A DNA stretch of 64,000 bases from Spirochaetota bacterium. GTDB taxonomy: Bacteria; Spirochaetota; Brachyspiria; Brachyspirales; JACRPF01. This document shows positions 42,833-63,841 of this stretch, in pieces (positions within the stretch are counted from its first letter, which is position 1; each line of letters begins with the position of its first letter). Below the pieces are notes generated by a model. The model ran no database searches and had not been told where the DNA came from. It saw only the letters and a list, made by a program, of their open reading frames with translations. The stretch spans positions 186,001 through 250,000 of the forward strand of contig JACRPF010000014.1 in the NCBI GenBank assembly GCA_016214035.1, in the 5' to 3' direction. The translations under genes were made by a program, and so were the position numbers.

Positions 42833-44110
42833 TCAGCTGATATTGAATGTACGGTTAATCGCGGCAATGTCATGTTCGGCGATATGCTTAACCCCGCCGA
42901 CAAGACCCGCATTCACGATAGCCTGCGCACTGTATTCGGCAACTTCCAGCCGATCGAACGCCTCAAGTATGTTTTTCCCGGTAACAATAACGCAGTCATT
43001 TTCGCAAATGACAACAGGTGTTTTCGACGAGATGAGTCCGGCAGTCTTTTCCCGGTCGATGAACTGCGAGCCGAACGGTAAAAGCGGAATATTTCTGAGC
43101 ATGATATAGGTTTCAGGTATCGTTTTCGTGTCATAGGGAATGCCTGTTACGCCGAACGCGAGTACGCATGGCGGATGTGCCATGATAATTGCATTGATAT
43201 CGCTGTGGCGTTCATATATCATCCTGTGCAGCAAGACCGAATGACTCGGATTTTTGCCGCGTTCCCTGGTGCCGTCCTTGATACACACAAGGTCGTTTTC
43301 ACCCATCATCGCGCGGTCAACACCGTACGGCGTTATCAGAAAACTGTTTTCATCCAGCCGTGCTGAAAATGTGCCTTCTGTGCTTGTGGCCAGCTGACGT
43401 GTGCAGCTTCTGTGGATAAACACGCACATATCGCGTCGCAGTGACCGCTCTTTCGCGTCGATAGTGCTGTGATCAAATTCGGGTAGTTCGCCCGTTTGAT
43501 TCTGACGCGCATTATCAATCTGCTGATCGGTCAATAATCGTACGTTACCGAGCTGATTGCCGCGTATCGTCAGGCGGGCGCAGAAATCAAGTGTTTCCAT
43601 GCGTTCAAATGCTTCCTGTACGGTATGACCGGCTGATACGATGCCGTGGTTTTCCATCAACACGAGATTATAACCTTCGGCAAATCTGCGTCCGATATTG
43701 TCGGCAAGCGCGGTACTTCCCGGAATGGCATACGCGGAATAACCCACCGGTCCGCAGATGTCGCGGGCTTTCGGCATGATGCGTGTGTCGGGTATAGTTC
43801 GCGAAATGCTGAACGCAACAAGCGCCGGAGGATGCGCGTGTACGACAGCGCGGATTTCGGGTCGTGCCGCATACACCGCAAGATGGAACGGATATTCACT
43901 GGACGGGCGATGCAGTCCCTGCGTGCTTCCGTCGGTATTGATGAGAACGATATCTTCCGGGCGTAAAGTGCCTTTGTCAACACCGGACGGCGTTATCCAT
44001 GTGGAGCCGTCATCGTTACGTATTGAAATGTTACCGCCGGACAGCGTTGTCATTCCATTATTGTAAATACGCTGCATCACCGCAGTTATCTGCTCCTGAG
44101 TTGTCGGCAT
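42833..44110 (-). CDS. tandem class II aldolase/adducin-domain protein
   Basis: A 425-aa protein of two class II aldolase domains (about 1-205 and 218-425). The first keeps the active-site set: E72, H91 and H93 in VVHAHPP, and H155 in MENHGI. In the second, the equivalents are S291, M310, H312 and D372, so most zinc ligands and the catalytic Glu are lost. Single-domain relatives cleave fuculose- or rhamnulose-phosphate or epimerise pentulose phosphates. The second half probably serves assembly or binding. AAGGAG precedes the ATG. Confidence 0.82.
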   Translation of the reverse strand: MPTTQEQITAVMQRIYNNGMTTLSGGNISIRNDDGSTWITPSGVDKGTLRPEDIVLINTDGSTQGLHRPSSEYPFHLAVYAARPEIRAVVHAHPPALVAFSISRTIPDTRIMPKARDICGPVGYSAYAIPGSTALADNIGRRFAEGYNLVLMENHGIVSAGHTVQEAFERMETLDFCARLTIRGNQLGNVRLLTDQQIDNARQNQTGELPEFDHSTIDAKERSLRRDMCVFIHRSCTRQLATSTEGTFSARLDENSFLITPYGVDRAMMGENDLVCIKDGTRERGKNPSHSVLLHRMIYERHSDINAIIMAHPPCVLAFGVTGIPYDTKTIPETYIMLRNIPLLPFGSQFIDREKTAGLISSKTPVVICENDCVIVTGKNILEAFDRLEVAEYSAQAIVNAGLVGGVKHIAEHDIAAINRTFNIS

Positions 44111-50323: not shown

Positions 50324-51202
50324 TTAGCGGGGTGATGTTGTCGCTGAATACACCGTATGTGCTTTATATGAACTTCTGACCAATGGTCCCGATGCGACAC
50401 CGGAGAAGCCTATCGACAATGCGAATGTCCGGTAGGCATCAAATGCTTCGGGCGTTACATAGGAAACAACAGGTGCATGCTTAACCGACGGCGCAAGATA
50501 TTGGCCGATGGTGACACAATCACATCCTGTTGAACGGATATCACGGAGTGTTTCATGTACTTCCGCTTCTGTCTCGCCGAGCCCCACCATGATACCAGAC
50601 TTCGTGACCAGCGCGGGGCTGTACCGCTTCACCAGTGCGAGCAGTTCGAGTGAACGCTGATAGTCCGCCTGGGGACGTATCGCCGGATACAACCGGGATA
50701 TCGTTTCAATATTGTGATTAAGTACGGCAGGATGCACATCGGCTACAGCTATTATCGATGATATGTTGCCGCCGAAATCAGGAATGAGAACTTCTACGGG
50801 AATGGTTTCGTCAAACGCACGGATTGCCTTAAGGACGCTGACATAATGTGACGCCCCGCCGTCGGGAATATCGTCACGGGTAACCGATGTGATGACCACA
50901 TACCTGAGCTTGAATGCAGCAATTGCCTTCACCACATCATCCGCTTCCGATGCGTTCACCGAATCGGGAACTGATTTATCAACCGCGCAGAACCTGCAGG
51001 TGCGTGTGCAGTGACTGCCGAGAATCATGAATGTAGCGGTGCCTTTGCCGAAACACTCCACCATATTCGGACAGTTCGCTTCCTCGCACACCGTATGCAG
51101 GGAAAGGCTCCTGAGCGTTGCAGCAATCGTTTCGCGTTTTTCGCTGTCGGCGGCGTTTACACGCACGGAAAGCCACGGCGGTTTTTTAACGGTATTATTC
51201 AT
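50324..51202 (-). CDS. lipA: lipoyl synthase
   Basis: A 292-aa radical-SAM enzyme that inserts two sulfurs into the octanoyl group on lipoyl domains. Both clusters are visible: the auxiliary set CEEANCPNMVEC and the radical-SAM CTRTCRFC. VTSVTRDDIPDGGASHYV, MVGLGETEAEV and the C-terminal SGPLVRSSY are family motifs; Arg-Ser-Ser closes the active site. ATG 51202 overlaps the lipB stop by eight bases. It is the last gene of the operon that encodes the lipoyl-bearing E2. Confidence 0.97.
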   Translation of the reverse strand: MNNTVKKPPWLSVRVNAADSEKRETIAATLRSLSLHTVCEEANCPNMVECFGKGTATFMILGSHCTRTCRFCAVDKSVPDSVNASEADDVVKAIAAFKLRYVVITSVTRDDIPDGGASHYVSVLKAIRAFDETIPVEVLIPDFGGNISSIIAVADVHPAVLNHNIETISRLYPAIRPQADYQRSLELLALVKRYSPALVTKSGIMVGLGETEAEVHETLRDIRSTGCDCVTIGQYLAPSVKHAPVVSYVTPEAFDAYRTFALSIGFSGVASGPLVRSSYKAHTVYSATTSPR

Positions 51203-51839
51203 AAACGAATACTTCCTTAATCGCAGCGGCAAGCGATGAAAATACGTCGGTCATCACCGCCGGTGCGCCGCGGACCTCACGCAGCGAGGTAACGCCGCGA
51301 TCGGGGATGCCGCAGGGAACGATATAACTGAACGGCGTCATGTCAACGTTCACGTTGAGCGCAATCCCATGCATGCTGACGCCGTGTTTGAACGCAACTC
51401 CGACAGCGGCAATTTTTTTATCATCGATCCAGACACCGCGATGCTCCGGGGCCCGGCCGCTTTGCAGATCATAATCGCGTGACAGTACCCGGATAACAGC
51501 CTCTTCAAGATTCCAGATGAACTGGCGCACGTCATGGTTCACAACAGCCATGTCGGCGATGAGGTAACACACCGCCTGTCCCGGCCCGTGATAGGTGGCC
51601 TCTCCTCCCCGCTCAGTCGTATGCAGCGCAACACCTTTTGACGCGAGATATTCTTTCGTCGTGAGCAGATGTGACGCATCCGTACGCCGCCCAACGGTTA
51701 TCACCGGATTGTGTTCGACAAGCATGAGCGTATCGGTAATCATACCGCGCTGTCGTTGTTCTACAAGTGCACACTGATCAGCATATGCGGACGCATAATC
51801 CACGCTACCGCATGACAATACCGATAACAGCCCGGACAA
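51195..51839 (-). CDS. lipB: lipoyl(octanoyl) transferase
   Basis: A 214-aa transferase that moves octanoate from acyl carrier protein to lipoyl domains. Motifs: LVEHNPVITVGRRTD, ERGGEATYHGPGQAVCYLI, and the C-terminal MHGIALNVNVDMTPFSYIVP with PCGI carrying the active Cys. Start: TTG 51839, five bases after GGAGG. A longer frame would overlap the upstream dehydrogenase gene. Coupled to lipA downstream. Confidence 0.95.
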   Translation of the reverse strand: MSGLLSVLSCGSVDYASAYADQCALVEQRQRGMITDTLMLVEHNPVITVGRRTDASHLLTTKEYLASKGVALHTTERGGEATYHGPGQAVCYLIADMAVVNHDVRQFIWNLEEAVIRVLSRDYDLQSGRAPEHRGVWIDDKKIAAVGVAFKHGVSMHGIALNVNVDMTPFSYIVPCGIPDRGVTSLREVRGAPAVMTDVFSSLAAAIKEVFVYE

Positions 51840-51855
51840 TGGGGCCTCCGTACGC

Positions 51856-53130
51856 TTACAGCTTTTTCGCGTTTGCAAGAAGATAGCGTTCCGACTCAGA
51901 AGACCAGAGGCCATTCGTTTTCGATACTATTGCGGCAAGCTCTTTGAATAGCGGATCGCTTGCTCCTTTGGATGCAAAGTCGTTTATCGCGACAAGCGGC
52001 ATATCTATGTTTGTGTAGATGAGTTTCTTGCCGCCGGGGATTTCCGGCAGATGCAGCGTGGTCTCAACGACGGCGGTCATCCCGCCCACATGCGTAACCA
52101 TGGTCGCAGGGTCGATCTTGTTGCGTCCCATCATATCAAGCGATTCAATCATGTCGTTCGTGTTGCCGCCGCTCGTGCCGACGATATGTGTCGATGCGTA
52201 ATGCACGTTGTAGAAGTTGAACGGCGCGCTGAAATTGGCGTCGGTGGGACCGGCGAAGAAGTCGAGACAGCCGTCGTGCGCGAGTATCTTGTCGCCCTGT
52301 TCAACGAGCGGAGCAACCGGCGCGAATACGAAAACATCATTGAAGCCGTTGCCGTTGGTGAGCGAGCGAAGATGCGCCACCGGATCGGCTACGCTTTTCG
52401 TGTTTACATAGCGAAGGTCAACACCGTTCTTTTTCGCCTCGGCAACAGTGTATATGGAAGCGGCACGTGCGAGACGCGCGTCGTCGATATCGGTGACTAC
52501 CAGAAGCGCCGGCTTTCGATCGCAATGAATCGCATAATCGATGGCGCCAAGACCCATGGGGCCGACACCGGCGAGTATCGCCATGGAACCGCCTTTGACG
52601 ATACCCATGGCGTGTTCATAGCTGCCGGGCGTGGTGTGATAATTTGCATGGAAAGCGCCGACGATGCATGACATGGGTTCCGCAAGCGAGCCCTTGAAGA
52701 ACGCATCGCCCTTGAACTCGAGCAGGCAGTTATGCGTCATCACTTCTTCAGGTATTATAATATAGGTTGCATCACCGCCGATATGCTGATACGAATATCC
52801 CGGCGCGGAAAGCACTCCCACCGGTCCCTGTTCATAATTGATGGCCGGCTGTATCGAGAACTTCTGTCCGTCTTTGAACTGCTTCTTCCACTTTTTGCCC
52901 ACCTCGACAATTTCGCCGCAGAACTCATGGCCGATGATGGTCGGGTTCTTATCGATATCTTTCGGCACGCGTTTGTGGTCGGTCCCCTGCGCCGCCGCCT
53001 TGTAGCTCGACATGCAGATACTGTCCGAGATGATATGCGCGAGTATCTCGCCGTCTTTGATCGCGGGTAATTCGAACTCTTCAAGTCTTAGGTCTTTCTT
53101 GCCGTAAAGTCGTACTGCTTTGGTTTTCAT
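51856..53130 (-). CDS. zinc-type polyol dehydrogenase, L-sorbose-1-phosphate reductase-like
   Basis: A 424-aa medium-chain dehydrogenase. A GroES-like N-terminal domain carries IIGHEFCGEIVEVGKKW and SICMSSYKAA, with Cys and His-Glu as zinc ligands. The Rossmann part has ILAGVGPMGLGAIDYAI. It is longer than typical alcohol dehydrogenases (about 350 aa), as are SorE-type sorbose-1-phosphate reductases and related sugar-phosphate dehydrogenases, which it resembles. Its place in the operon after the aldolase fusion suggests oxidation or reduction of a polyol or ketose phosphate. It starts 71 bases after the previous gene. Confidence 0.8.
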   Translation of the reverse strand: MKTKAVRLYGKKDLRLEEFELPAIKDGEILAHIISDSICMSSYKAAAQGTDHKRVPKDIDKNPTIIGHEFCGEIVEVGKKWKKQFKDGQKFSIQPAINYEQGPVGVLSAPGYSYQHIGGDATYIIIPEEVMTHNCLLEFKGDAFFKGSLAEPMSCIVGAFHANYHTTPGSYEHAMGIVKGGSMAILAGVGPMGLGAIDYAIHCDRKPALLVVTDIDDARLARAASIYTVAEAKKNGVDLRYVNTKSVADPVAHLRSLTNGNGFNDVFVFAPVAPLVEQGDKILAHDGCLDFFAGPTDANFSAPFNFYNVHYASTHIVGTSGGNTNDMIESLDMMGRNKIDPATMVTHVGGMTAVVETTLHLPEIPGGKKLIYTNIDMPLVAINDFASKGASDPLFKELAAIVSKTNGLWSSESERYLLANAKKL

Positions 53131-53201: not shown

Positions 53202-55166
53202 TTACTTCAACATCACCTGGCCGCCGGTCACGGGTACGGCCTGCCCCGTCTCATATTCCTGCTCCATTATATAGAACAGCGCCTTCATCACATCCGGCAC
53301 CGTGCAGCCGCGTTTTGCGGGCACTTTGCTTTCATAGAATAGTTTGACGTCGGCAACTGTTTTGGCTCCGGGTACTTTTTTCGCTTTCAGATACTGCACG
53401 AAAAGACCGTTCACCGGATCGCTCCAAAGCGGACCGTCAAAGAAGTTGCCCGGGCAGATTGAGTTTACCTTGATGTTATGCGGCATGAGCTCAAGCGCAA
53501 ACGACTGTGTCAGTCCTATGCCGCCGAACTTTCCGCCCGCATAGGCAAAGTTCTTGTTGCTGCCTTCAAGCCCCGACTTTGAATTGATCTGAATGATGTC
53601 GGTGAAGTGGCTCGCGCGATGTGCATGCTGGGTTTTCATCACCGCGGATGCGTACTTGGCGCAGACGAAATATCCGGAGTAATTGATCCGTGTCATGAAA
53701 TCGAATGTCTTGGCGTCCATCTGGTCAAGTCCGCCGGCACGGAGCACTCCGGCATTGCTCACGAACACATCGAGTCCGCCGAAAGCCTTTACGGTTTCAG
53801 CGGTCATATGCGATACCGACTCCTCAGATGATACATCGGTTTTCACGAAGAGCGCGCGGTTCTGTTTCTGAAGCGCATTGAGTTTGTCGGCAAGCCCCCT
53901 GCCTTTCTCCTCGTTAAGGTCGGCGATGACCACATTCGCGCCATTATCGAACAGCGACTGTGCTATGCCTTCGCCGAACCCCTGTGCCGCACCGGTGACA
54001 ACGGCTATTTTGTTCATAGCACGTCCGAAGGCGCCCGATTTCGCCACCGCACGGCGATAGTTCTCTACTTCCCAATTATCGATGAATGCCACCGCTTTTT
54101 TCGTCATCGGATTCGGTCCGCCGAAGCTCGCCGCACCGGCGGCTATCTTCATCACGTCTTCGAAAACGGCGAGTACGGTCTCGGCGCCGCGCGCACTGTC
54201 ATCCGCTCCGATAATGCCGAAATCCTTGATGATGATCACCTTCGGCATATATCCGTTTTTCTTTTTGAACAGCGGTATGCTTTTGGCGATATCTGCAATT
54301 ATCGCATCGGGTGTTCCGCCCGCCGAATACAGCACATGCGATTTGCAGTACACGATATTGTCGGGCGTATACGGTTCTGCTATGGTGTTGAACGCGGAGA
54401 TAGTCTTTGCGAACTTCTGCACGAGTCCGCTGTTATGCGCCGCAGCTATTTTTACCGATGACTCGGAGAGAAGCATGCGTACGGCGGGAAGTATCTTAAG
54501 TGCGGCGGCATCGTCTATCGGCAGTGGTTCATGAACGGGAAGCTTTTTTATCTTCTTACGAAGAACCGAAACAATACTTTCATAGATCTTCTTTATCTCG
54601 GCTGTCGTATCCGCACCGACAAAGATACCATGATTTTCCAGAAAGATAACATGCGGATGTTTGTGATGTTTCGCGCGATACGCGCCGAGCGCGAACTCCA
54701 CTTTTTTTGAAAGCGTGTATCCCGGATCCGTATAGGTGATGAACAGCGCGTCGGGAAACAGCGTCAGCGCCGACGAGGCTTTCTCTGAACACATGAGCGC
54801 GTTCACGAGCGTCGGATGCGTATGAACGACGTAGCGGTAACTGATAAGGTCGTGCAGTGACGCTTCTACCGAGGGCCGCAGCGTGCTCTCGGGATTGGCG
54901 CGTGCCGCGGCGAGGTCGTTCTTGATCTCCGTTTCACGTTTTATTGGGTCATCGCTGTAATGCTTGTGCATGATCTCCGCAAGCTGCTTGCGGTTGAGCA
55001 CGGCATATCCGTCTTCGTTTATCGCCGCAAGCGAAACGCCGCTTGCTTTCACGTATAAAAGCACATCATCCTTATACGACGTATTGCCCCCGCCGGCAAT
55101 AACATAGTCGGGGTTCGCCCCGTAATATCGCGAAATCGAAACGAGGTCCTGCAATGCTGTTGACAT
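53202..55166 (-). CDS. bifunctional class II aldolase / short-chain dehydrogenase
   Basis: The product is 654 aa. Residues 1-215 form a class II aldolase with catalytic E101 and zinc ligands H115, H117 (VVHTHPT) and H179 (LENHGIF). About 215-380 is a linker domain that includes SHVLYSAGGTPDAIIADIA. About 385-654 is a short-chain dehydrogenase with VVTGAAQGFGEG, SNAGVL and the Y-x3-K pair in YAGGKFGG. The plan is that of RhaEW/YuxG, which cleaves rhamnulose-1-phosphate and oxidises the lactaldehyde, and of sorbitol-6-phosphate-dehydrogenase-like fusions. ATG 55166 follows AAGGAG and lies two bases after the previous stop. Confidence 0.88.
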   Translation of the reverse strand: MSTALQDLVSISRYYGANPDYVIAGGGNTSYKDDVLLYVKASGVSLAAINEDGYAVLNRKQLAEIMHKHYSDDPIKRETEIKNDLAAARANPESTLRPSVEASLHDLISYRYVVHTHPTLVNALMCSEKASSALTLFPDALFITYTDPGYTLSKKVEFALGAYRAKHHKHPHVIFLENHGIFVGADTTAEIKKIYESIVSVLRKKIKKLPVHEPLPIDDAAALKILPAVRMLLSESSVKIAAAHNSGLVQKFAKTISAFNTIAEPYTPDNIVYCKSHVLYSAGGTPDAIIADIAKSIPLFKKKNGYMPKVIIIKDFGIIGADDSARGAETVLAVFEDVMKIAAGAASFGGPNPMTKKAVAFIDNWEVENYRRAVAKSGAFGRAMNKIAVVTGAAQGFGEGIAQSLFDNGANVVIADLNEEKGRGLADKLNALQKQNRALFVKTDVSSEESVSHMTAETVKAFGGLDVFVSNAGVLRAGGLDQMDAKTFDFMTRINYSGYFVCAKYASAVMKTQHAHRASHFTDIIQINSKSGLEGSNKNFAYAGGKFGGIGLTQSFALELMPHNIKVNSICPGNFFDGPLWSDPVNGLFVQYLKAKKVPGAKTVADVKLFYESKVPAKRGCTVPDVMKALFYIMEQEYETGQAVPVTGGQVMLK

Positions 55167-55168
55167 GG

Positions 55169-57691
55169 TCACTCCTTGCCGCTGCTTGTCGATGATATAG
55201 ATTTTATGATGGATCGTACGTTATAGGGATCGTTCGGATTGATACTGCGGCCGGCTTCAGCATACCGGCGAATGCGATCGACGAGTGCGGCACGTGCCAG
55301 CGGATTTTCCGGATGAAATAATGCGAAACGTTCATCCACACTCGCCAGTTTTTCATGTGCGATGAGCGCCCACGTGGCCGTAATCAGATGCGTGAACGAC
55401 GGTTCAAGGATTATCGGGCAGTTGAATGACTGACGCGAGCTGTTGATATCAACACCGCTGATCTCCATGAAGCCGTGTTTGGCCGCAAGCGCCTGCAGCC
55501 GGGCTATCTGTTCTCGCGTATTGCGGGGCGGCATATACGTTATGCCTTTGAAGCCGATGCGCTTGATCTCATCCATGAGTTCATCGAGATAGGCGTCCTC
55601 GAAGTGTTCGGCCTTCTTGTCACCGGTCGGCGATTCGCCCACATCACCGAGGTACGCATACACGGGTATCGCGTTGATGCTGTTGCCGAATGCCACCGCA
55701 TCGAATACCGATATGCATTCTTTTTCATTCGGCTGTATGAATATCTTGTCAAGGAATGAGCTTTTCAGAACCCCGAGCAGGTCATACATATAATGCGGGT
55801 TCTTCGGATCGCAGAGATATGCTTCTATTTTTTTCGGCAGGAGTATTTCCATCACACATTCCACGAATGATACCAGCGCCGGCCCCTTCCCGTTCTTGGC
55901 GATAAGCGTACGCGCGAGCGCCGCGAGTATATGCCGCTCGGTGATTGCGCCGCCGTGTTTCGCCTCGGAGGCGTTGAAAACATCACGTTCATAATCTACC
56001 GGTGCGAGGCCATACCGTTCGATGAGCCGGTTCATCGCCTTCACCTGAGCGCGGTTACGCTCATTGCGCGCGGCCTGTATCGGCTTGAGGAACTTTGCTG
56101 CTTTTTTTATGTGCTTCCGCGGAATGCCGTGAATCGCGATATAACCGATATTTTTCGAATCGGGATTGTTAATCTTCCGTCCTTCAATAGCCGTCTTTGA
56201 AAAGTTGACGCGCAGTTCGAATCCGCAGGTGGACGCAATGCCGAAAGACGATGCCGCGGCTATCATCTCTTCGCAGCCGCCCACCGAGTCGTGATCCATG
56301 ATGCCTACCGCCTGCAGACCCGCACGCTGCGCCGCATATGCGGCCATCGTCGGATGATACGGGCTGAACGAATAACTCGTATGAACGTGATTGTTCACTT
56401 CTTCGGTACGTGTTACGGAAACTTTGTTCTGTCGGATACATTTCCCGAACACCGCGGCGTTTTTTAGACGTTCATTTTTTTTCGCGCTGTTCAGCTTTTC
56501 CACGACACTGTCTATCTCATTTTCTGGCGAATTCATAATGCGCTGGATAACCCTGCCTTCATAGATTTGCGTATAACATAACCCGCACACATCGGTGAGC
56601 ACCGCCCGTGTTCCCCGGGTACGGAACTCACTATGAAACAATGCATCTGCCGGAAAAAGAGCGCCGTGTTCATCAGCTGCGCGGAACGAGAGCGCGGCAA
56701 AGAACACGTCCATAATCGTACGGTACTTCAATCCATGTTTTTCCGCAAGAATCATCGCGCCGACAATGCGGTCGTCTTTTTTCAGCTTCCGCATGAGATC
56801 GCGGCCGACACGGAATACCGTATCGCCGAGCGACCTGTTGCGAAAACGGCTGATGAGGTCGTCTATATGAGCGGTGAGTTCCTGCATTGTCAGCGTCTCA
56901 GAATATTCTTTTACAAGCGCATTCGATGCTTCGAGCATGCATTCGCGTACCCGTCGGGTTACCGATTCATCCTTTAAAACATCGGCAATCAACACGGCTT
57001 TTTTGTCAGCCTGAAAACCGAAATACGCTGCGGCGGCATGACCGAGATTATGTACGAACAGTTTCCGGTCGACATACGCGTCGATATTTTCAACCGGCTT
57101 CAGGTCGGGCACATCGGGTATTTTATTGAGAAACCCTTTTGCATCGACGATAAGTGTGTTATACGGTTCGGCAAAAACCCAGAGCGGGTCTGTCTTCACG
57201 TCCTCATCTTTCATGATAGGGACCATTTTGCCGATACTCGTAGCAACCAGGCCTACCCGTTTTGTCGTGTCACCGAGGACTTTCTCCAGCATCTCGCGGC
57301 AGAGCGTCACCGCATTACGGGCATTTTCGGCAAGGATAACATCAAGCGCCTTGTCGCTGCGTCGCTTTATGCCTTCCGCCAGATTTGGAATGATATACTT
57401 GAGCGCATCTTTTCCAACCGCGGTTGCGGCTATCGATGCATCGGCAAGCTCATCCGCCACACGCTGCGTATCGTTCCCGTCAACGGCACGGACATTTTTG
57501 ACCACGATTGTCTCATCATGTCCATCCGGATGTTTGACAATAACACGATATTCATGCTTTGCATTCAATGCCGCGACAAGTGGTTTATTCACATCAACAA
57601 AAACGGTTTCATATCCGGCGCGGGAGAACACCGCGGCTATGAACGACCGGCCTATGTTGCCGGCGCCGAATAAAACCAGTTTCTTGCTCAT
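55169..57691 (-). CDS. mannitol-1-phosphate dehydrogenase-like / PHP-domain fusion
   Basis: The product is 840 aa. Residues 1-385 match MtlD: Rossmann loop LFGAGNIGRSF, EPYNTLIVD and the polyol long-chain dehydrogenase signature K210-x4-N215-x2-H218 in RKLFVHNLGH. About 430-760 is a PHP phosphoesterase-like domain: H435 and H437 in NHVHTSYS, D466-H467-D468 in GIMDHDSV, E492, H521 and D748 in SGVDINSS. The last PHP motif normally reads DxH; here the His is Asn750. MtlD alone is about 380 aa. The fused protein could oxidise a polyol phosphate and hydrolyse a phosphate ester, but only the first activity has a close precedent. Confidence 0.85.
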   Translation of the reverse strand: MSKKLVLFGAGNIGRSFIAAVFSRAGYETVFVDVNKPLVAALNAKHEYRVIVKHPDGHDETIVVKNVRAVDGNDTQRVADELADASIAATAVGKDALKYIIPNLAEGIKRRSDKALDVILAENARNAVTLCREMLEKVLGDTTKRVGLVATSIGKMVPIMKDEDVKTDPLWVFAEPYNTLIVDAKGFLNKIPDVPDLKPVENIDAYVDRKLFVHNLGHAAAAYFGFQADKKAVLIADVLKDESVTRRVRECMLEASNALVKEYSETLTMQELTAHIDDLISRFRNRSLGDTVFRVGRDLMRKLKKDDRIVGAMILAEKHGLKYRTIMDVFFAALSFRAADEHGALFPADALFHSEFRTRGTRAVLTDVCGLCYTQIYEGRVIQRIMNSPENEIDSVVEKLNSAKKNERLKNAAVFGKCIRQNKVSVTRTEEVNNHVHTSYSFSPYHPTMAAYAAQRAGLQAVGIMDHDSVGGCEEMIAAASSFGIASTCGFELRVNFSKTAIEGRKINNPDSKNIGYIAIHGIPRKHIKKAAKFLKPIQAARNERNRAQVKAMNRLIERYGLAPVDYERDVFNASEAKHGGAITERHILAALARTLIAKNGKGPALVSFVECVMEILLPKKIEAYLCDPKNPHYMYDLLGVLKSSFLDKIFIQPNEKECISVFDAVAFGNSINAIPVYAYLGDVGESPTGDKKAEHFEDAYLDELMDEIKRIGFKGITYMPPRNTREQIARLQALAAKHGFMEISGVDINSSRQSFNCPIILEPSFTHLITATWALIAHEKLASVDERFALFHPENPLARAALVDRIRRYAEAGRSINPNDPYNVRSIIKSISSTSSGKE

Positions 57692-57711
57692 GGTATTAAA
57701 TATGTCCCTGA

Positions 57712-60168
57712 TTACACGCCGAGTCTGTTTCTGCGTATCATCTCGCCTGTGGTGCGGTTCGTCGTGACCGCGTGTCCTTTCAGCGGGATGATGCGTTCGT
57801 GTATCGTGTCAAGGAACCATTCCTTCTGCGGGAAGAAGCATGTCTCCATCTCTGCCGCCGGTGTTATCCAGTTGCGCGAACCGACGATTGCCGGAGGCGC
57901 ATCGAGATAATCGAAACACATCTGCGTGATATTCGATGCGACCTCGGCCATGAACGACGAGCGTTCGCAGGCGTCGGTAGCCAGTAGCACGCGGCCTGTC
58001 TTTTTCACCGATGCTATGATAGGTTCATAATTAAGCGGATTCACGAAACGAAGGTCGATGACCTCGGCGTTCATGCCGTACTTTGCCGCAAGTTCATCGG
58101 CAGTTTCTATCGCCTTATACAGAACAGGTCCGAGTGTGATGATGGTGATGTCGCTTCCGGTTCGCCGTACCGCAGGTTCACCGAGCGGAACTTCGTAATA
58201 ACCTTCCGGCACGCCGCCCTTTTCGAACATCTCGCCGATATCATATATCTTCTGACTTTCAAAGAACATGACCGGATCAAGCCCGCGAAGTGCAAGGTTA
58301 AGCATGCCTTTCGCGTCATATGGCGTCACCGGGTAGAACACTTTGAGGCCGGGGATATGTGCACAGATGGACGTCCAGTCCTGCGAATGCTGAGCGCCGT
58401 ACTTTGCGCCCACCGACACACGCACGGTAAGCGGCATCGTGAGTATGCCCGCCGACATTGACTGCCATTTGGCAACCTGATTGAATATCTCGTCACCGGC
58501 GCGGCCCATGAAGTCGCAGTACATGAGTTCCACGACAGCGCGGCCGCCGGACAATGCGTAACCAACGCCTGAGCCGACAATAGCGCCTTCCGAAATCGGC
58601 GAATTGAAAAGCCGGTGATAGGGAATCGCTTCCGTCAGACCGCGGTACACGGCGAACGCTCCGCCCCAGTCGCGGTTCTCTTCACCGTACGCAACCATGG
58701 TGGGGTCTTCATAGAAACGATGTATCATCGCCTCAAATAATCCGTCACGGAGTGCATATATCTTGTTCTTGGAAAGCGGCTTGCCTTTTTCGTCAAGGCC
58801 ATAGCGGGCTTTCGTCTTGAGCTGCTTCACGCGCGGGTTGTCCTCTTTCGCCATGAGCACATCGGGCTTTCTGTCGTCGAGTTTGTCGGCATAGCGGTTG
58901 GAGAACATCACCTGTTCGATGAACTGCGGCGCAACACGCGGCGATTTTTCCATGGATATCGCAAGCTTTGTGATGTCGGTGAGTTTTTTGACGACGCTTT
59001 CCTTCATTGCGGCGGCATCGTTCGCGCTGATGACATTGTTGCTTTTCAAATATGAAGTAAATTCCTTTATGCAGTCGCCTTCTTCCCAGAGCGCGATCTC
59101 TTCTTTCGTGCGGTACGATGACGCATCCGACGGCGAGTGCCCCGACAGACGATACGTTATCGTATCCATGAGGACCGGTCCTTTCCCGGCGAGAAGAATT
59201 TCCTTCTTGCGTTCAACCGCATCGGCAACCGCGAGCGGATTATAGCCGTCAACGCGTTCCGCATGCATGCTGTCCGGGTTCACACCGGCGCCTACGCGGG
59301 CAAGAATATTGTAGCCCATCGTCTCGCCCATGGTCTGGCCGCCCATGCCGTAGAAATTGTTGAAGAAATTGATCATGATCGGGGGCGCACCGCCGATCTC
59401 TTTGTTCCAGAGCGTCGTGTACTGGTCCATGGCGGCGAACATCATGCCTTCCCACACCGGACCGCAGCCCATCGACGCGTCGCCGATGTTGCCGATGACG
59501 ATGCCGGGCTTGCGGTTGACGCGTTTGAAGAGTGCCGCACCCACGGAGATATCGCCCGAACCGCCGACGATGGCGTTATTGGGCATGCTGCCGAACGGCG
59601 GGAAGAACGCGTGCATCGAACCGCCGAGACCTTTGTTGAAACCGGTCTCTTTCGCGAATACTTCGGCAAGCGTTCCGTAGATGACGAAATTCTCGGCGAG
59701 TTCTTTGACGCTGCCCTTATGGCCTTCTTCGACAACATTCAGACATCTGCCGTCGAGAAAGCCCTTCATGATGGACATGAGTTTCGCATCATCAACTTTT
59801 GATACGGCCGAGAGACACTTCGACAATATTTCTCCGTGACTCCGGTGTGAACCGAAAATGAAATCCTCGATGGTAAGATGCACCGACTGCCCCACTGACG
59901 CGGACTCCTGCCCCATAGAAAGGTGTGCGGGTCCCATGTGATTGTATTCAATGCCCTGGTACGAGCCGGTGGTCTTTATCAGATTGAGCATCGTCTCGAA
60001 TTCGCGGATGATGAGCATGTCATAAAGCATCTTGACAAGGCGTTCCTTGCCGTATTTCGCAAGCTCTTTTTTGATATCCGGTTTGTATTGATTTATCGGT
60101 ATATCTTTGAACTTCAGTACATCGGACTTTCTGACTTTCTTCGGATCGACGAGGATTGACTGCGGCAT
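57712..60168 (-). CDS. 2-oxoacid dehydrogenase E1, alpha and beta subunits fused
   Basis: An 818-aa thiamine-diphosphate enzyme that decarboxylates a 2-oxoacid and passes the acyl group to E2. The alpha part (1 to about 450) contains [34 protein letters not shown] with the Mg/ThDP motif and [10 protein letters not shown], then [11 protein letters not shown]. The beta part (about 480-818) contains [46 protein letters not shown] and [15 protein letters not shown]. Pyruvate, branched-chain or acetoin specificity cannot be read. It is followed by the MtlD/PHP fusion 20 bases later. Confidence 0.92.
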
Positions 60169-60183
60169 GATGATTCTCCTTTT

Positions 60184-61521
60184 TTAGTGCAGCGAAATGG
60201 CTGTGTCTTTTATTATTTCGGAAATGGACGGATGCGGAAATATTATCTCGGAAATATCTTTTACACGAAGTTCCGACTCTATCATCGCGGCGGCTCCGTA
60301 TATCATCTCTGAGCATGCGCCGCCGAGCATATGCACGCCGAGCAGCACGCTCGTTTTTTCATGCACGAGCACTTTGCAGACACCAGCGTCTTCGCCGTTT
60401 TCGGCAAGAAAACGCCCGTTGACACGCAGCGGCATGGAGGCGGTACGATACGGTACGTTCGCTTTTTTCAATTCAGCTTCCGTGAGACCTGCGCCGGCCG
60501 CCTCCGGTATTCCATACACAGCCCACGGCATCGCGTGATAGCGCATCATATCACGAACGCCCGCGATGTTGTTCACGGCTACTTCCGCCATACGTGATGC
60601 GGCGTGCGCCAGAAGATATTTTCCCGTCACGTCGCCGATGGCATATACGCCGGGCACATTGGTCTGCATCTTATCGTTTACGCGGACGCCTTTGTTGTCG
60701 AAATCAAGACCAATCGATTCAAACCCCATTCCCTTGGTATTTGGTCTTCGTCCGACGGCCATAAGTATGATGTCGGCGGTCACCGATTCCTGTTTGCCGT
60801 CTTTGGTATATTTCACCGTGTTGCCGCTGATTGATTCCACTTTTGCGTTCAGCTGGAAATCAACCGACGACATGGCTTTTCGAAGCATCGGTGCAAGCTC
60901 CGCGTCCATGAACGGTATTATCTCCGGCATCATTTCGATGACGGTTGTTTTTACACCAAGCGTGCTGAAAAACGATGCAAACTCAATGCCGATGACACCG
61001 CCGCCGATGACGGCAAGCGACTTGGGCATCGTTGACAGCGACAGTATCTCGGTGCTTGTGAGAACGCTTTTTGAATCCGCTCCCGGTATGGGCGGAACGA
61101 ACGTCGATGAACCGGTGGCGATGATGATGTTTGTGCCTTCATAAACTGTTCCATTCACCATCACTTTACCCTGGCCGGTTATCATCCCGTTGCCGTTGAC
61201 AACGGTAACCTTGTATTTCTTCATGAGATACGCAATGCCGCCGCGAAGTTTTTCCATTACTTCGTTTTTCCACGCCATCGCTTTGGCGAGATCGAAACGG
61301 GGATTGTCGAACGTCACGCCGAAACGTCCCGCATGAATGCCGTGCGCATAGAGCTTTGCGGAATTGAGGAGCGTTTTGGTTGGAATGCAGCCTTCATTCA
61401 AGCATACACCGCCGAGATTCGCTTTCTCTACCAGCAGTACTGATTTACCCTGTGCACCGGCACGTTCTGCAGCGATGTATCCGCCCGGTCCGCCGCCGAT
61501 GATGATTATATCGTATGTCAT
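60184..61521 (-). CDS. lpd: dihydrolipoamide dehydrogenase (E3)
   Basis: A 445-aa flavoprotein that reoxidises the dihydrolipoyl arm with NAD+. The FAD motif IIIGGGPGGYIAAERA is at the N-terminus, the redox disulfide in GGVCLNEGCIPTKTLL, the NAD motif in VIGGGVIGIEFASFF, and the active His-Glu in FPHPSISEI at the end. ATG 61521 follows GGAG. A longer frame runs into the dispersed repeat and is rejected. Confidence 0.96.
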   Translation of the reverse strand: MTYDIIIIGGGPGGYIAAERAGAQGKSVLLVEKANLGGVCLNEGCIPTKTLLNSAKLYAHGIHAGRFGVTFDNPRFDLAKAMAWKNEVMEKLRGGIAYLMKKYKVTVVNGNGMITGQGKVMVNGTVYEGTNIIIATGSSTFVPPIPGADSKSVLTSTEILSLSTMPKSLAVIGGGVIGIEFASFFSTLGVKTTVIEMMPEIIPFMDAELAPMLRKAMSSVDFQLNAKVESISGNTVKYTKDGKQESVTADIILMAVGRRPNTKGMGFESIGLDFDNKGVRVNDKMQTNVPGVYAIGDVTGKYLLAHAASRMAEVAVNNIAGVRDMMRYHAMPWAVYGIPEAAGAGLTEAELKKANVPYRTASMPLRVNGRFLAENGEDAGVCKVLVHEKTSVLLGVHMLGGACSEMIYGAAAMIESELRVKDISEIIFPHPSISEIIKDTAISLH

Positions 61522-61719: not shown

Positions 61720-63072
61720 CTATGCTTCCAGCATCATAAGTACATCAAAGTTCGCCAGATTGTCCGATATCGCCTTGAGGAAACGTGCCGCAGGCGCACC
61801 GTCAACCGGTTGATGATTGTACGTGAGCGACAATCCCATATGCGGCACGAATGCTGTTGCACCGTCTTTCATAACCGGCCGCAATGAAACGGCACAGACG
61901 CCGAGAATGGCGACTTCCGGCGGATTCAATACCGGCGTGAAACTCTCAATACCGAGCGCACCGAGATTACTGATGGTGAACGTTGCGCCGGAAAGCTCAT
62001 CCGGTTTCGCGACACCATCCACACATGCCTTGCCGAGACGTTTTGCTTCTGCAGAGATCTGCCGGAGCGACATGGCCTGAGCGTTACGTATCACCGGCAC
62101 CATGAGGCCTTTCGGTGTGTCAACAGCGAAACCGATATGCACGGCGTCGAATTCGCGCATCACATCGCCCAGAAAATGAGCGTTCATGTATTTGAACTGC
62201 GGCAGTGTGCGCGATACCGTATAGAGCACGAAGTCATTGAGCGTTATTTTGTTAAGCCCAAGTGCATCATCGGTTTTCTTGATGCGTTCGCGATAGTTCA
62301 TCATGACCGACGCATCGGCTGACGACGAGAGCGTAAGCTGCGCTGTGGTAGTGAGCGACGCAAGCATGCGCTGCGAAATGACCTTGCGAATACCTTTTAC
62401 CGGTATGTCGGTACTTGCGCCGGGGAACGGCAGTGCTTTCGCATCGACACGAGCTTTTTTTGCGGTAAGGTCAACGGCAAGTATACGGCCGCCGATACCG
62501 CTGCCGCTTGCCGGTATGCTCAGGCCGGATTCACGCGCATGCGCTGCCGCCGCGGGAGATATTCCGTTTGCGATAGCGTTTCTTACATCGCGTTCGATTA
62601 CACGGCCGCCGGGCCCGCTGCCCGGAAGCGATGATGCATCAACGCCTTTATCATTTGCGAGATTACGCGCGCGCGGTGAAACGCCGACATGTTCACCGGA
62701 TACGGCGACTGGAGCAGCCGGTGACGCTGAAACTGCGTCGGTTGATACAGCGGGTGCTGGTGATGCTGTTGCTGGAGCGGCGGGCGTTTCAGATTTTACT
62801 GCCGATGACGGAGTCATTGCGCTCACATCTTCACCGGGCTTTCCAACCGCGGCGATGACGGTCATCACGGGAACATCCTCCCCCGCCGGGAAAAATATCT
62901 TCAGAAGCGTTCCCGCCTCGGGGGCTTCAATCTGGAATGTGGCCTTGTCGGTCTCAACGTCGCAGATCACTTCACCGGCGGCAACACTGTCGCCTTCCTT
63001 TTTTTTCCATTCGAGGATGATGCACGATTCAACGGTATTTCCCTGTTTGGGCAAGAGCACTTCTTTCGCCAT
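61720..63072 (-). CDS. dihydrolipoyl acyltransferase (E2)
   Basis: A 450-aa core subunit of the 2-oxoacid dehydrogenase complex. The lipoyl domain is at 1-78 with the lipoyl-lysine in DVETDKATF. An Ala/Pro-rich swinging linker follows (about 85-125). A peripheral-subunit-binding domain is at about 130-170 (VSPRARNLANDKGVD, GPGGRVIERDV), and a second similar motif follows at about 175-205 (HARESGLSIPASGSGIGGRI). The acyltransferase domain ends with the active site H-x3-D-G in NHQPVDGAPAARFL. It is the first enzyme gene after deoR (22-base spacing). Confidence 0.93.
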   Translation of the reverse strand: MAKEVLLPKQGNTVESCIILEWKKKEGDSVAAGEVICDVETDKATFQIEAPEAGTLLKIFFPAGEDVPVMTVIAAVGKPGEDVSAMTPSSAVKSETPAAPATASPAPAVSTDAVSASPAAPVAVSGEHVGVSPRARNLANDKGVDASSLPGSGPGGRVIERDVRNAIANGISPAAAAHARESGLSIPASGSGIGGRILAVDLTAKKARVDAKALPFPGASTDIPVKGIRKVISQRMLASLTTTAQLTLSSSADASVMMNYRERIKKTDDALGLNKITLNDFVLYTVSRTLPQFKYMNAHFLGDVMREFDAVHIGFAVDTPKGLMVPVIRNAQAMSLRQISAEAKRLGKACVDGVAKPDELSGATFTISNLGALGIESFTPVLNPPEVAILGVCAVSLRPVMKDGATAFVPHMGLSLTYNHQPVDGAPAARFLKAISDNLANFDVLMMLEA

Positions 63073-63094: not shown

Positions 63095-63841
63095 TCAAAC
63101 CCGTGAAACGGTAACGCCGGTCTTCTCAACCGCGGCAACCGCTTCATCGGTCATTGTCGTATCGGTAATGAGCGTATCAACTGCATTGATCGGAAGCACC
63201 TGAACGAAACCCTTTTTTCCGAATTTCTGTGCATCGGCGATAAGCACAACCTTATCCGCTTTTTCCGCAATCTTTTTGGCGACTTCCGCACTTTCAATGA
63301 GGTGCGTGGTAAGCCCGTGTTCTATCGAAAATCCGTCCGTGCCGATGAAAGCGAGCGATACATGAAACTGCTCAAGCTCACGAAGCGTCATGGGGCCTAC
63401 GAACGATTCGGTGGCGGGACGGAATTCTCCGCCGATAAGCGTGAGATGCATCGCCGGATTGATGCGCGCATACGGAAATATGAGTGATGAATTACTGACG
63501 ATATGAATATCACGTTTTCCGAGAAGATATTTTGCAATGAGCGCCGTCGTTGTTCCCGCATCCACCATTATCGTATCACCGTTCTGAACCATCTCAGCGG
63601 CCGCTTTTGCGATGCGCTTTTTTGAATCGTTCATGTTCTTTAAGCGTTCCATAATGCTCGGATGGAACGCAGGCAACGCCCCGCCTTTGCTGCGTATGAT
63701 AAGACCCTTTTCTTCAAGTGAACTCAAACATGTCCTTACGGTTACCGCGGACACGTTAAGCTGTTTGCTGAGCTCATTAACGCTGATACTGCTGTCTTCA
63801 GCCAATATCGCTATTATTTTACTTTCGTAATCACTGCTCAT
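63095..63841 (-). CDS. DeoR-family transcriptional repressor
   Basis: The product is 248 aa. The winged helix-turn-helix (SSISVNELSKQLNVSAVTVR) differs from the classical SxxTIRRDL but is in the same place. The C-terminal sensor domain carries DAGTTTALIAKYL, VSNSSL, GGEF and FIGTDGFS, the sugar-phosphate-binding motifs of this family. It is the first gene of the long catabolic operon and probably controls its own promoter. The inducer is likely a phosphorylated sugar or polyol made by the operon. Confidence 0.93.
   Translation of the reverse strand: MSSDYESKIIAILAEDSSISVNELSKQLNVSAVTVRTCLSSLEEKGLIIRSKGGALPAFHPSIMERLKNMNDSKKRIAKAAAEMVQNGDTIMVDAGTTTALIAKYLLGKRDIHIVSNSSLIFPYARINPAMHLTLIGGEFRPATESFVGPMTLRELEQFHVSLAFIGTDGFSIEHGLTTHLIESAEVAKKIAEKADKVVLIADAQKFGKKGFVQVLPINAVDTLITDTTMTDEAVAAVEKTGVTVSRV

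Follow-up and report, generated by a model that had tools for sequence, protein, structure and literature searches.

An apparent linker-less fusion of an MtlD-type dehydrogenase and a variant PHP domain in a spirochaete operon, with a possible role in 6-deoxyhexose catabolism

Several described enzymes resemble parts of the locus reported here. MtlD (mannitol-1-phosphate 5-dehydrogenase) oxidises a hexitol phosphate next to its terminal carbon, which is the same type of step as that catalysed by SorD, and in L-sorbose catabolism SorE and SorD together move the carbonyl from one end of the hexulose phosphate to the other. There is also a precedent for the covalent joining of an MtlD-type dehydrogenase to a phosphoesterase-type fold, as seen in our window, namely the bifunctional MtlD of Acinetobacter, in which the partner is a HAD phosphatase (structures 7ocn to 7ocu, model NF046057; PMC6291793). 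RhaD-ADH (TIGR02632) is a bifunctional rhamnulose-1-phosphate aldolase/short-chain dehydrogenase. Finally, the PHP barrel is found in the group that includes TrpH, RNase AM and 3',5'-nucleoside bisphosphate phosphatase (2yb1, 3o0f, 9etk), and active PHP domains carry nine ligands in the order H, H, D/H, H, E, H, C/H, D/N, H (PMC3666897). Here, we describe an open reading frame (ORF) of 840 amino acids, found in a 64,000-nucleotide stretch of DNA from a Spirochaetota bacterium (the window), in which an MtlD-type dehydrogenase is followed directly by a PHP part.

The preliminary description of this DNA had read the ORF as one continuous frame with an MtlD-like and a PHP-like domain. This is confirmed by the ORF itself, which runs uninterrupted from 57691 to 55169 over 840 codons with no internal stops, as well as by Pfam matches and AlphaFold2 superpositions. 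The claim that no protein of this layout has been characterised has also held up, since none was found with the tools used. In the Acinetobacter enzyme the phosphatase is of the HAD type and N-terminal, whereas the window protein carries a variant PHP at its C-terminus, and the operons differ. Indeed, the bifunctional MtlD model NF046057 scored only 53 of 800 bits, matching residues 197-328 and leaving the window protein outside that family, and a Pfam search found no HAD domain in the fused ORF. The literature, searched among open-licence papers for an MtlD-PHP fusion, for this gene cluster or for a deoxysugar route of the kind proposed below, yielded nothing relevant, which is weak evidence of absence.

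Table 1. Features of the apparent operon and of the fused protein (window coordinates).
Feature	Coordinates	Strand	Remarks
DeoR-family regulator (AgaR/SrlR-like)	63095..63841	-	first gene of the run
E2, lipoyl-bearing acyltransferase	61720..63072	-	
E3, dihydrolipoyl dehydrogenase	60184..61521	-	over NCBIfam cut-off; start set at the Met before the FAD motif
Lipoyl-dependent dehydrogenase E1	57712..60168	-	alpha and beta in one chain, 818 aa
Fused MtlD::PHP ORF	55169..57691	-	840 aa, stop codon within coordinates
MtlD-type polyol-phosphate dehydrogenase domain	56525..57691	-	residues 1-389; catalytic K210, N215, H218
Variant PHP domain with native N-terminal helices	55169..56524	-	residues 390-840; Met390 corresponds to the start of unfused relatives
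Class II (RhaD-type) aldolase fused to SorD/SrlD-like short-chain dehydrogenase (SDR)	53202..55172	-	656 aa
Zinc dehydrogenase, full-length SorE relative	51856..53130	-	48-50% identical to annotated SorE, L-sorbose-1-phosphate reductase
lipB, lipoyl(octanoyl) transferase	51195..51914	-	
lipA, lipoyl synthase	50324..51232	-	

The fused gene forms part of an apparent operon in the order deoR-E2-E3-E1-[MtlD::PHP]-[aldolase::SDR]-SorE-like-lipB-lipA (Table 1), and the start of aldolase::SDR overlaps the stop of MtlD::PHP. Three consecutive genes on the minus strand (53202-60168) are fused, namely E1 alpha::beta, MtlD::PHP and aldolase::SDR. The last of these fusions is common to the window and to a sister genome (G001), and in most relatives aldolase and SDR are separate. 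Although it has the layout of RhaD-ADH, it scored 213 of the 568 bits of TIGR02632, below the cut-off, and its SDR half is nearer to sorbitol-6-phosphate dehydrogenase, which was the nearest enzyme found. The SDR is related to SrlD/SorD and the zinc dehydrogenase to SorE, as in L-sorbose catabolism, but modules of the window's type sit in a rhamnose/fucose cluster with E1-E2-E3 and PHP. The SorE-like protein (51856-53130) shares 55% identity with E. coli YggP, which may belong to similar chemistry. Elsewhere in the window, a 425-aa ORF on the minus strand (42833-44110) contains tandem class II aldolase domains, both over the Pfam cut-off.

The dehydrogenase half contains both Pfam domains of the family, Mannitol_dh at residues 4-193 (3.8e-29) and Mannitol_dh_C at residues 202-351 (6e-24), and matches solved MtlD structures in sequence at 2e-47. 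The catalytic signature K210/N215/H218 noted earlier was borne out, as the three residues are invariant in 24 MtlD-type sequences. In the AlphaFold2 model (alignment of 29 sequences; mean pLDDT 91.2, pTM 0.76), residues 3-394 superpose by VIA-align on MtlD 3h2z with a Z score of 44.1; with 3h2z and 5jnm taken together, the common fold covers residues 1-394 (Z 41-44, 27-32% identity) and includes the K/N/H set. The NCBIfam model for mannitol-1-phosphate 5-dehydrogenase matched residues 5-384 (1.1e-71) with 241.9 bits against the curated equivalog cut-off of 356, and the domain thus falls short of that assignment. In addition, where classical MtlD has the stretch VDRIVP, the window and most spirochaete relatives have IGKMVP, a hint that the substrate of this domain may differ from that of classical MtlD. 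Other spirochaete families (G033, G045, G056, G066, G073, G079) have an MtlD-type gene right behind a second E1 of 34-36% identity, and this recurrent link supports a role for MtlD in producing or removing a substrate or product of E1. A 756-aa fused E1 with an MtlD-type gene immediately downstream was seen in several spirochaete genera (L118, L119, L120, L122, L105, L109), with a divergent DeoR-type gene in L119.

For the second half, an HMM search against PHP families, which the preliminary description had proposed as a check, gave a Pfam PHP match over the gathering score (residues 435-500, 2e-6), and a profile built from 47 relatives of this half matched the phosphoesterase 3e0f at 2e-7. 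Residues 429-825 of the model superpose on the PHP proteins 3o0f (residues 429-786; Z 25.1, rmsd 2.9 over 272), 2yb1 (Z 23.2) and RNase AM 9etk (Z 22.9), so that structure superposition and Pfam both identify a PHP barrel. This barrel is shared with the TrpH/RNase AM group (Z 23-25), as are the HxH, DH and E motifs, and the TERH of the window aligns with GRPH; unlike that group, the window protein has ~100 additional residues between motifs III and IV. Nucleotide phosphatase (NF041577) was rejected as an assignment, with 37.6 bits against the 400 required and with ligands missing. The PHP half represents a conserved family of ~440 aa, 43-60% identical to the window protein in the aligned set, which has no name and is covered by no model in NCBIfam. 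A second, diverged PHP group of ~430 aa is present in other spirochaetes (L121 7262-9467; L158, L159, L160, L161; the G056 copy is 36% identical), and in G056 its gene lies directly upstream of a class II fructose/tagatose-bisphosphate aldolase-like gene.

Mapping of the ligands by HHalign, with TrpH-type proteins from the same phylum as the reference (positions 6 and 7 by profile alignment only), assigned positions 1 to 9 to H435, H437, F442, H467, E492, a lost ligand where the residue is not His, Y680, D748 and N750. Five of the nine canonical ligands (H435, H437, H467, E492, D748) are therefore kept, positions 3, 6, 7 and 9 are replaced, and the full nine-ligand, three-metal PHP site is absent. 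The list of metal motifs given at the outset stands for H435, H437, E492 and D748; in its D466-D468 motif the ligand position is H467, and H521 drops out, since position 521 is not conserved (34 H and 13 Q among 47). The replacements are uniform over the 47 relatives, with F in 46 of them and Y and N invariant. More than 60 columns are invariant in these 47 diverse sequences, many of them charged or polar; beyond the ligands they include R494, R542, R545, T584-E585-R586-H587, D637, K643, E658, Y678, D683, T689, D691, K692, E698, D699, R723, N724, R731, R753 and H779. Only one complete metal site is left, formed by positions 1, 2, 5 and 8, which in sites of the YcdX type bind one metal.

Since the ligand changes are uniform and so many other polar residues are invariant, the PHP half looks like a re-purposed active site and not like decay. 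It could instead have lost catalysis and serve as a scaffold or for regulation, comparable to the PHP domain of E. coli DNA polymerase III, as might be expected from the loss of positions 3, 6, 7 and 9 with respect to the published comparison table (PMC3666897). However, a full site at positions 1, 2, 5 and 8 together with the invariant columns fits a specialised active site, and we consider a dead domain improbable. Phosphoesterase activity of the re-purposed site is possible, but with a variant centre that holds one complete site phosphomonoesterase activity should not be assumed, and the PHP half may be something other than a simple phosphatase.

The domain limits first proposed (1-385 and ~430-760) were right as to two domains, and the ends of homologues now place the boundary more sharply, at ~389/Met390. 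Unfused MtlD-type relatives (L002, L059) end at the equivalent of residue ~389 and unfused PHP relatives start at the equivalent of Met390, so that two genes are joined here with no linker at all, the dehydrogenase domain (1-389) abutting the PHP part (390-840) and the fused frame being the native one for both halves. An end-to-end match to the query was found in its own genome only, that is, in one of 393 Spirochaetota genomes, the remaining matches covering one half only. Relatives of the PHP half number ~80, all of them unfused, in Spirochaetota, Atribacterota and Kiritimatiellota/Verrucomicrobiota. A pattern scan of an 84,980-species collection returned 49 loci, nearly all matched from residue ~394 onward, and in the other phyla that this species-wide scan covered only unfused PHP was seen. 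No relatives of the PHP half were found in a search of plasmids. In the sister genome G001 the order is E2-E3-E1-PHP, then aldolase::SDR and ZADH, with no MtlD in front of PHP; the PHP gene is interrupted by contig ends and an MtlD-type gene (53-54% identical) lies on a separate contig. From this arrangement and the rarity in the scans it follows that the fusion either originated in the lineage of the window or survived there alone.

A fusion seen in a single genome and lacking any linker could also be an artefact of sequencing or assembly, in which two adjacent genes appear as one because an error or frameshift near codons 383-390 removed the stop between them. Read in the +1 frame, the sequence has a TGA that overlaps the codon-390 ATG, a common arrangement of coupled genes, and a one-base error close to the end of the dehydrogenase domain could in principle mimic a fusion. 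On the other hand, a start codon followed by A often yields a +1 stop by chance, and the MtlD part, read in the fused frame, aligns with homologues over its whole C-terminus as far as the junction. The operon holds two further fusions, of which aldolase::SDR recurs in the sister genome, and an artefact seems to us unlikely.

The genomic surroundings of the PHP family point to deoxysugars. Many Spirochaetota carry the E1-PHP-SDR-SorE module, unfused, within their L-rhamnose/L-fucose cluster, and Atribacterota and Kiritimatiellota/Verrucomicrobiota have the module too. E1 is directly upstream of PHP at 36 of the 46 loci with room for it, an SDR lies at most 1 kb downstream at 33 of 41, and a SorE-like gene follows at 29 of 37. 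Rhamnulokinase-like FGGY genes were found at 25 loci, L-rhamnose mutarotase at 10 (the representative being over the cut-off) and FucU at 4; FucI adjoins the module in L052. Complete genomes such as G357, G280 and G386 carry RhaA, a RhaD-type aldolase of ~370 aa, FucI, deoR, E2, E3, E1, PHP, SDR, the SorE-like gene and an FGGY kinase within ~30 kb, along with ABC sugar transporters and usually FucU; in these clusters RhaA and FucI were called by model matches, and several transporters from N-terminal sequence only. RhaA and/or FucI is present in all 32 PHP-positive spirochaete genomes and in 61 of the 361 others (Fisher p 8e-23, uncorrected for shared ancestry). The genome of the window and its sister both have, next to RhaA, a long ORF whose N-terminal sequence resembles alpha-L-rhamnosidase (L146 9732-14122, L147 6814-13854), and from this pairing both organisms probably live on rhamnose-containing glycans. 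A pair of genes for an iron-dependent alcohol dehydrogenase and a LarA-type racemase lies near PHP in some Spirochaetota (L025 1325-3999, L128 1959-4610).

This context bears on the earlier proposal that the fused protein is a polyol-phosphatase device that sets the direction of a pathway. The MtlD fold with its intact K/N/H set, and the precedent of the MtlD-HAD fusion, are what a role in mannitol metabolism with a phosphatase half would predict. The PHP half, however, is conserved across phyla without MtlD and with other partners, four of its nine metal ligands are replaced, and the operon offers E1-E2-E3, an aldolase and SorE but no osmolyte or mannitol transport set. PHP alone is far commoner than the fusion, and among its 48 loci in the species-wide collection none shows an MtlD-type gene nearby in the stretch. 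Its constant partners are the lipoyl-dependent E1, the SorD/SrlD-like SDR and the SorE-like reductase, in genomes with rhamnose/fucose isomerases. Its metal centre is a variant with one complete site. The proposal is not upheld, and the mannitol/phosphatase reading, which is one among several and has better supported rivals, is in our opinion quite improbable. Mannitol osmolyte synthesis was set aside on gene context.

A role for the lipoyl-dependent complex in general metabolism can also be questioned. Pyruvate:flavodoxin oxidoreductase was matched in all 20 PHP-positive genomes tested (19 over the cut-off), and a second, PDH-like E1 (35-40% identity) is present in at least 11 of them. Given these enzymes, the 818-aa E1, which is kept at 60% identity or more in the same 20 genomes and scores best with pyruvate/branched-chain E1 models, is probably not the enzyme that handles pyruvate in housekeeping metabolism.

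We think that MtlD::PHP serves 6-deoxyhexose catabolism, with the dehydrogenase half oxidising or reducing a (deoxy)hexitol phosphate, and we infer the following chemistry. A kinase would form a 6-deoxyketose-1-phosphate, the SorE-like enzyme would reduce it at C2, and the SorD-like SDR or the MtlD-type domain would oxidise C5, shifting the carbonyl to the methyl end and giving a 1-deoxyketose-6-phosphate. On rhamnulose-1-phosphate or fuculose-1-phosphate, the logic of SorE and SorD would lead to CH3-CO-CHOH-R, the type of substrate used by acetoin dehydrogenase, and E1-E2-E3 would split it in a similar way to acetyl-CoA and a tetrose phosphate. Since rhamnose and fucose differ only at C4, the later aldehyde carbon, one module could serve both sugars. 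The PHP half, with its one intact metal site, would act on a phosphorylated intermediate, either by hydrolysis or by metal-assisted isomerisation/epimerisation, and fusion would keep the dehydrogenase and PHP steps close together and in a fixed stoichiometry.

In support of this pathway we count the completeness of the domains, the E1, SDR and SorE neighbours, the co-occurrence with RhaA/FucI, the kinship with SorE and SrlD and the link between E1 and MtlD. Against it, RhaA of the window's genome is on another contig (C12), with no close rhamnulokinase found in that genome (best match 3e-24). Aldolases are also present in these genomes, which thus possess the classical route, and the module could work downstream of it with lactaldehyde or pyruvate as substrate. 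Rhamnulose-1-phosphate or fuculose-1-phosphate would then be cleaved to DHAP and L-lactaldehyde, the SDR and SorE-like enzyme would turn lactaldehyde into lactate, propanediol or similar, E1-E2-E3 would oxidise a derived 2-oxo acid, and MtlD/PHP would handle side products. Lactaldehyde is common to both sugars, the RhaD-type aldolase lies beside RhaA in most complete genomes and is fused to the SDR in the window, and the E1 scores described above would be accounted for. However, the relatives SorE and SrlD use hexulose/hexitol phosphates instead of C3 aldehydes, these genomes already have pyruvate oxidoreductase and PDH-like enzymes, and the PHP half is left without a role; we regard such a downstream module as rather unlikely. 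As for direct cleavage, an undescribed 6-deoxyhexose pathway with MtlD::PHP as a two-step catalyst, and with a variant PHP chemistry new for the superfamily, is a doubtful possibility. Taken as a whole, the explanation that this is a genuine, lineage-specific and linker-less fusion of two enzymes of one 6-deoxyhexose pathway is one that we hold tentatively, with somewhat less than even confidence, the occurrence of the fusion in one genome counting against it.

Among the new facts, the variant metal site and the association between the PHP family and deoxyhexose use stand out as the strongest. An unnamed conserved family, a variant PHP with one intact metal site, is tied to the use of rhamnose and fucose in several phyla, and a lipoyl-dependent complex is found in an unexpected place, inside a sugar gene cluster. 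The fusion provides a natural Rosetta stone that connects the dehydrogenase step with the PHP step. If the proposed pathway is true, the deoxysugars that abound in algal and plant polysaccharides would be split directly to acetyl-CoA, by-passing lactaldehyde and propanediol.
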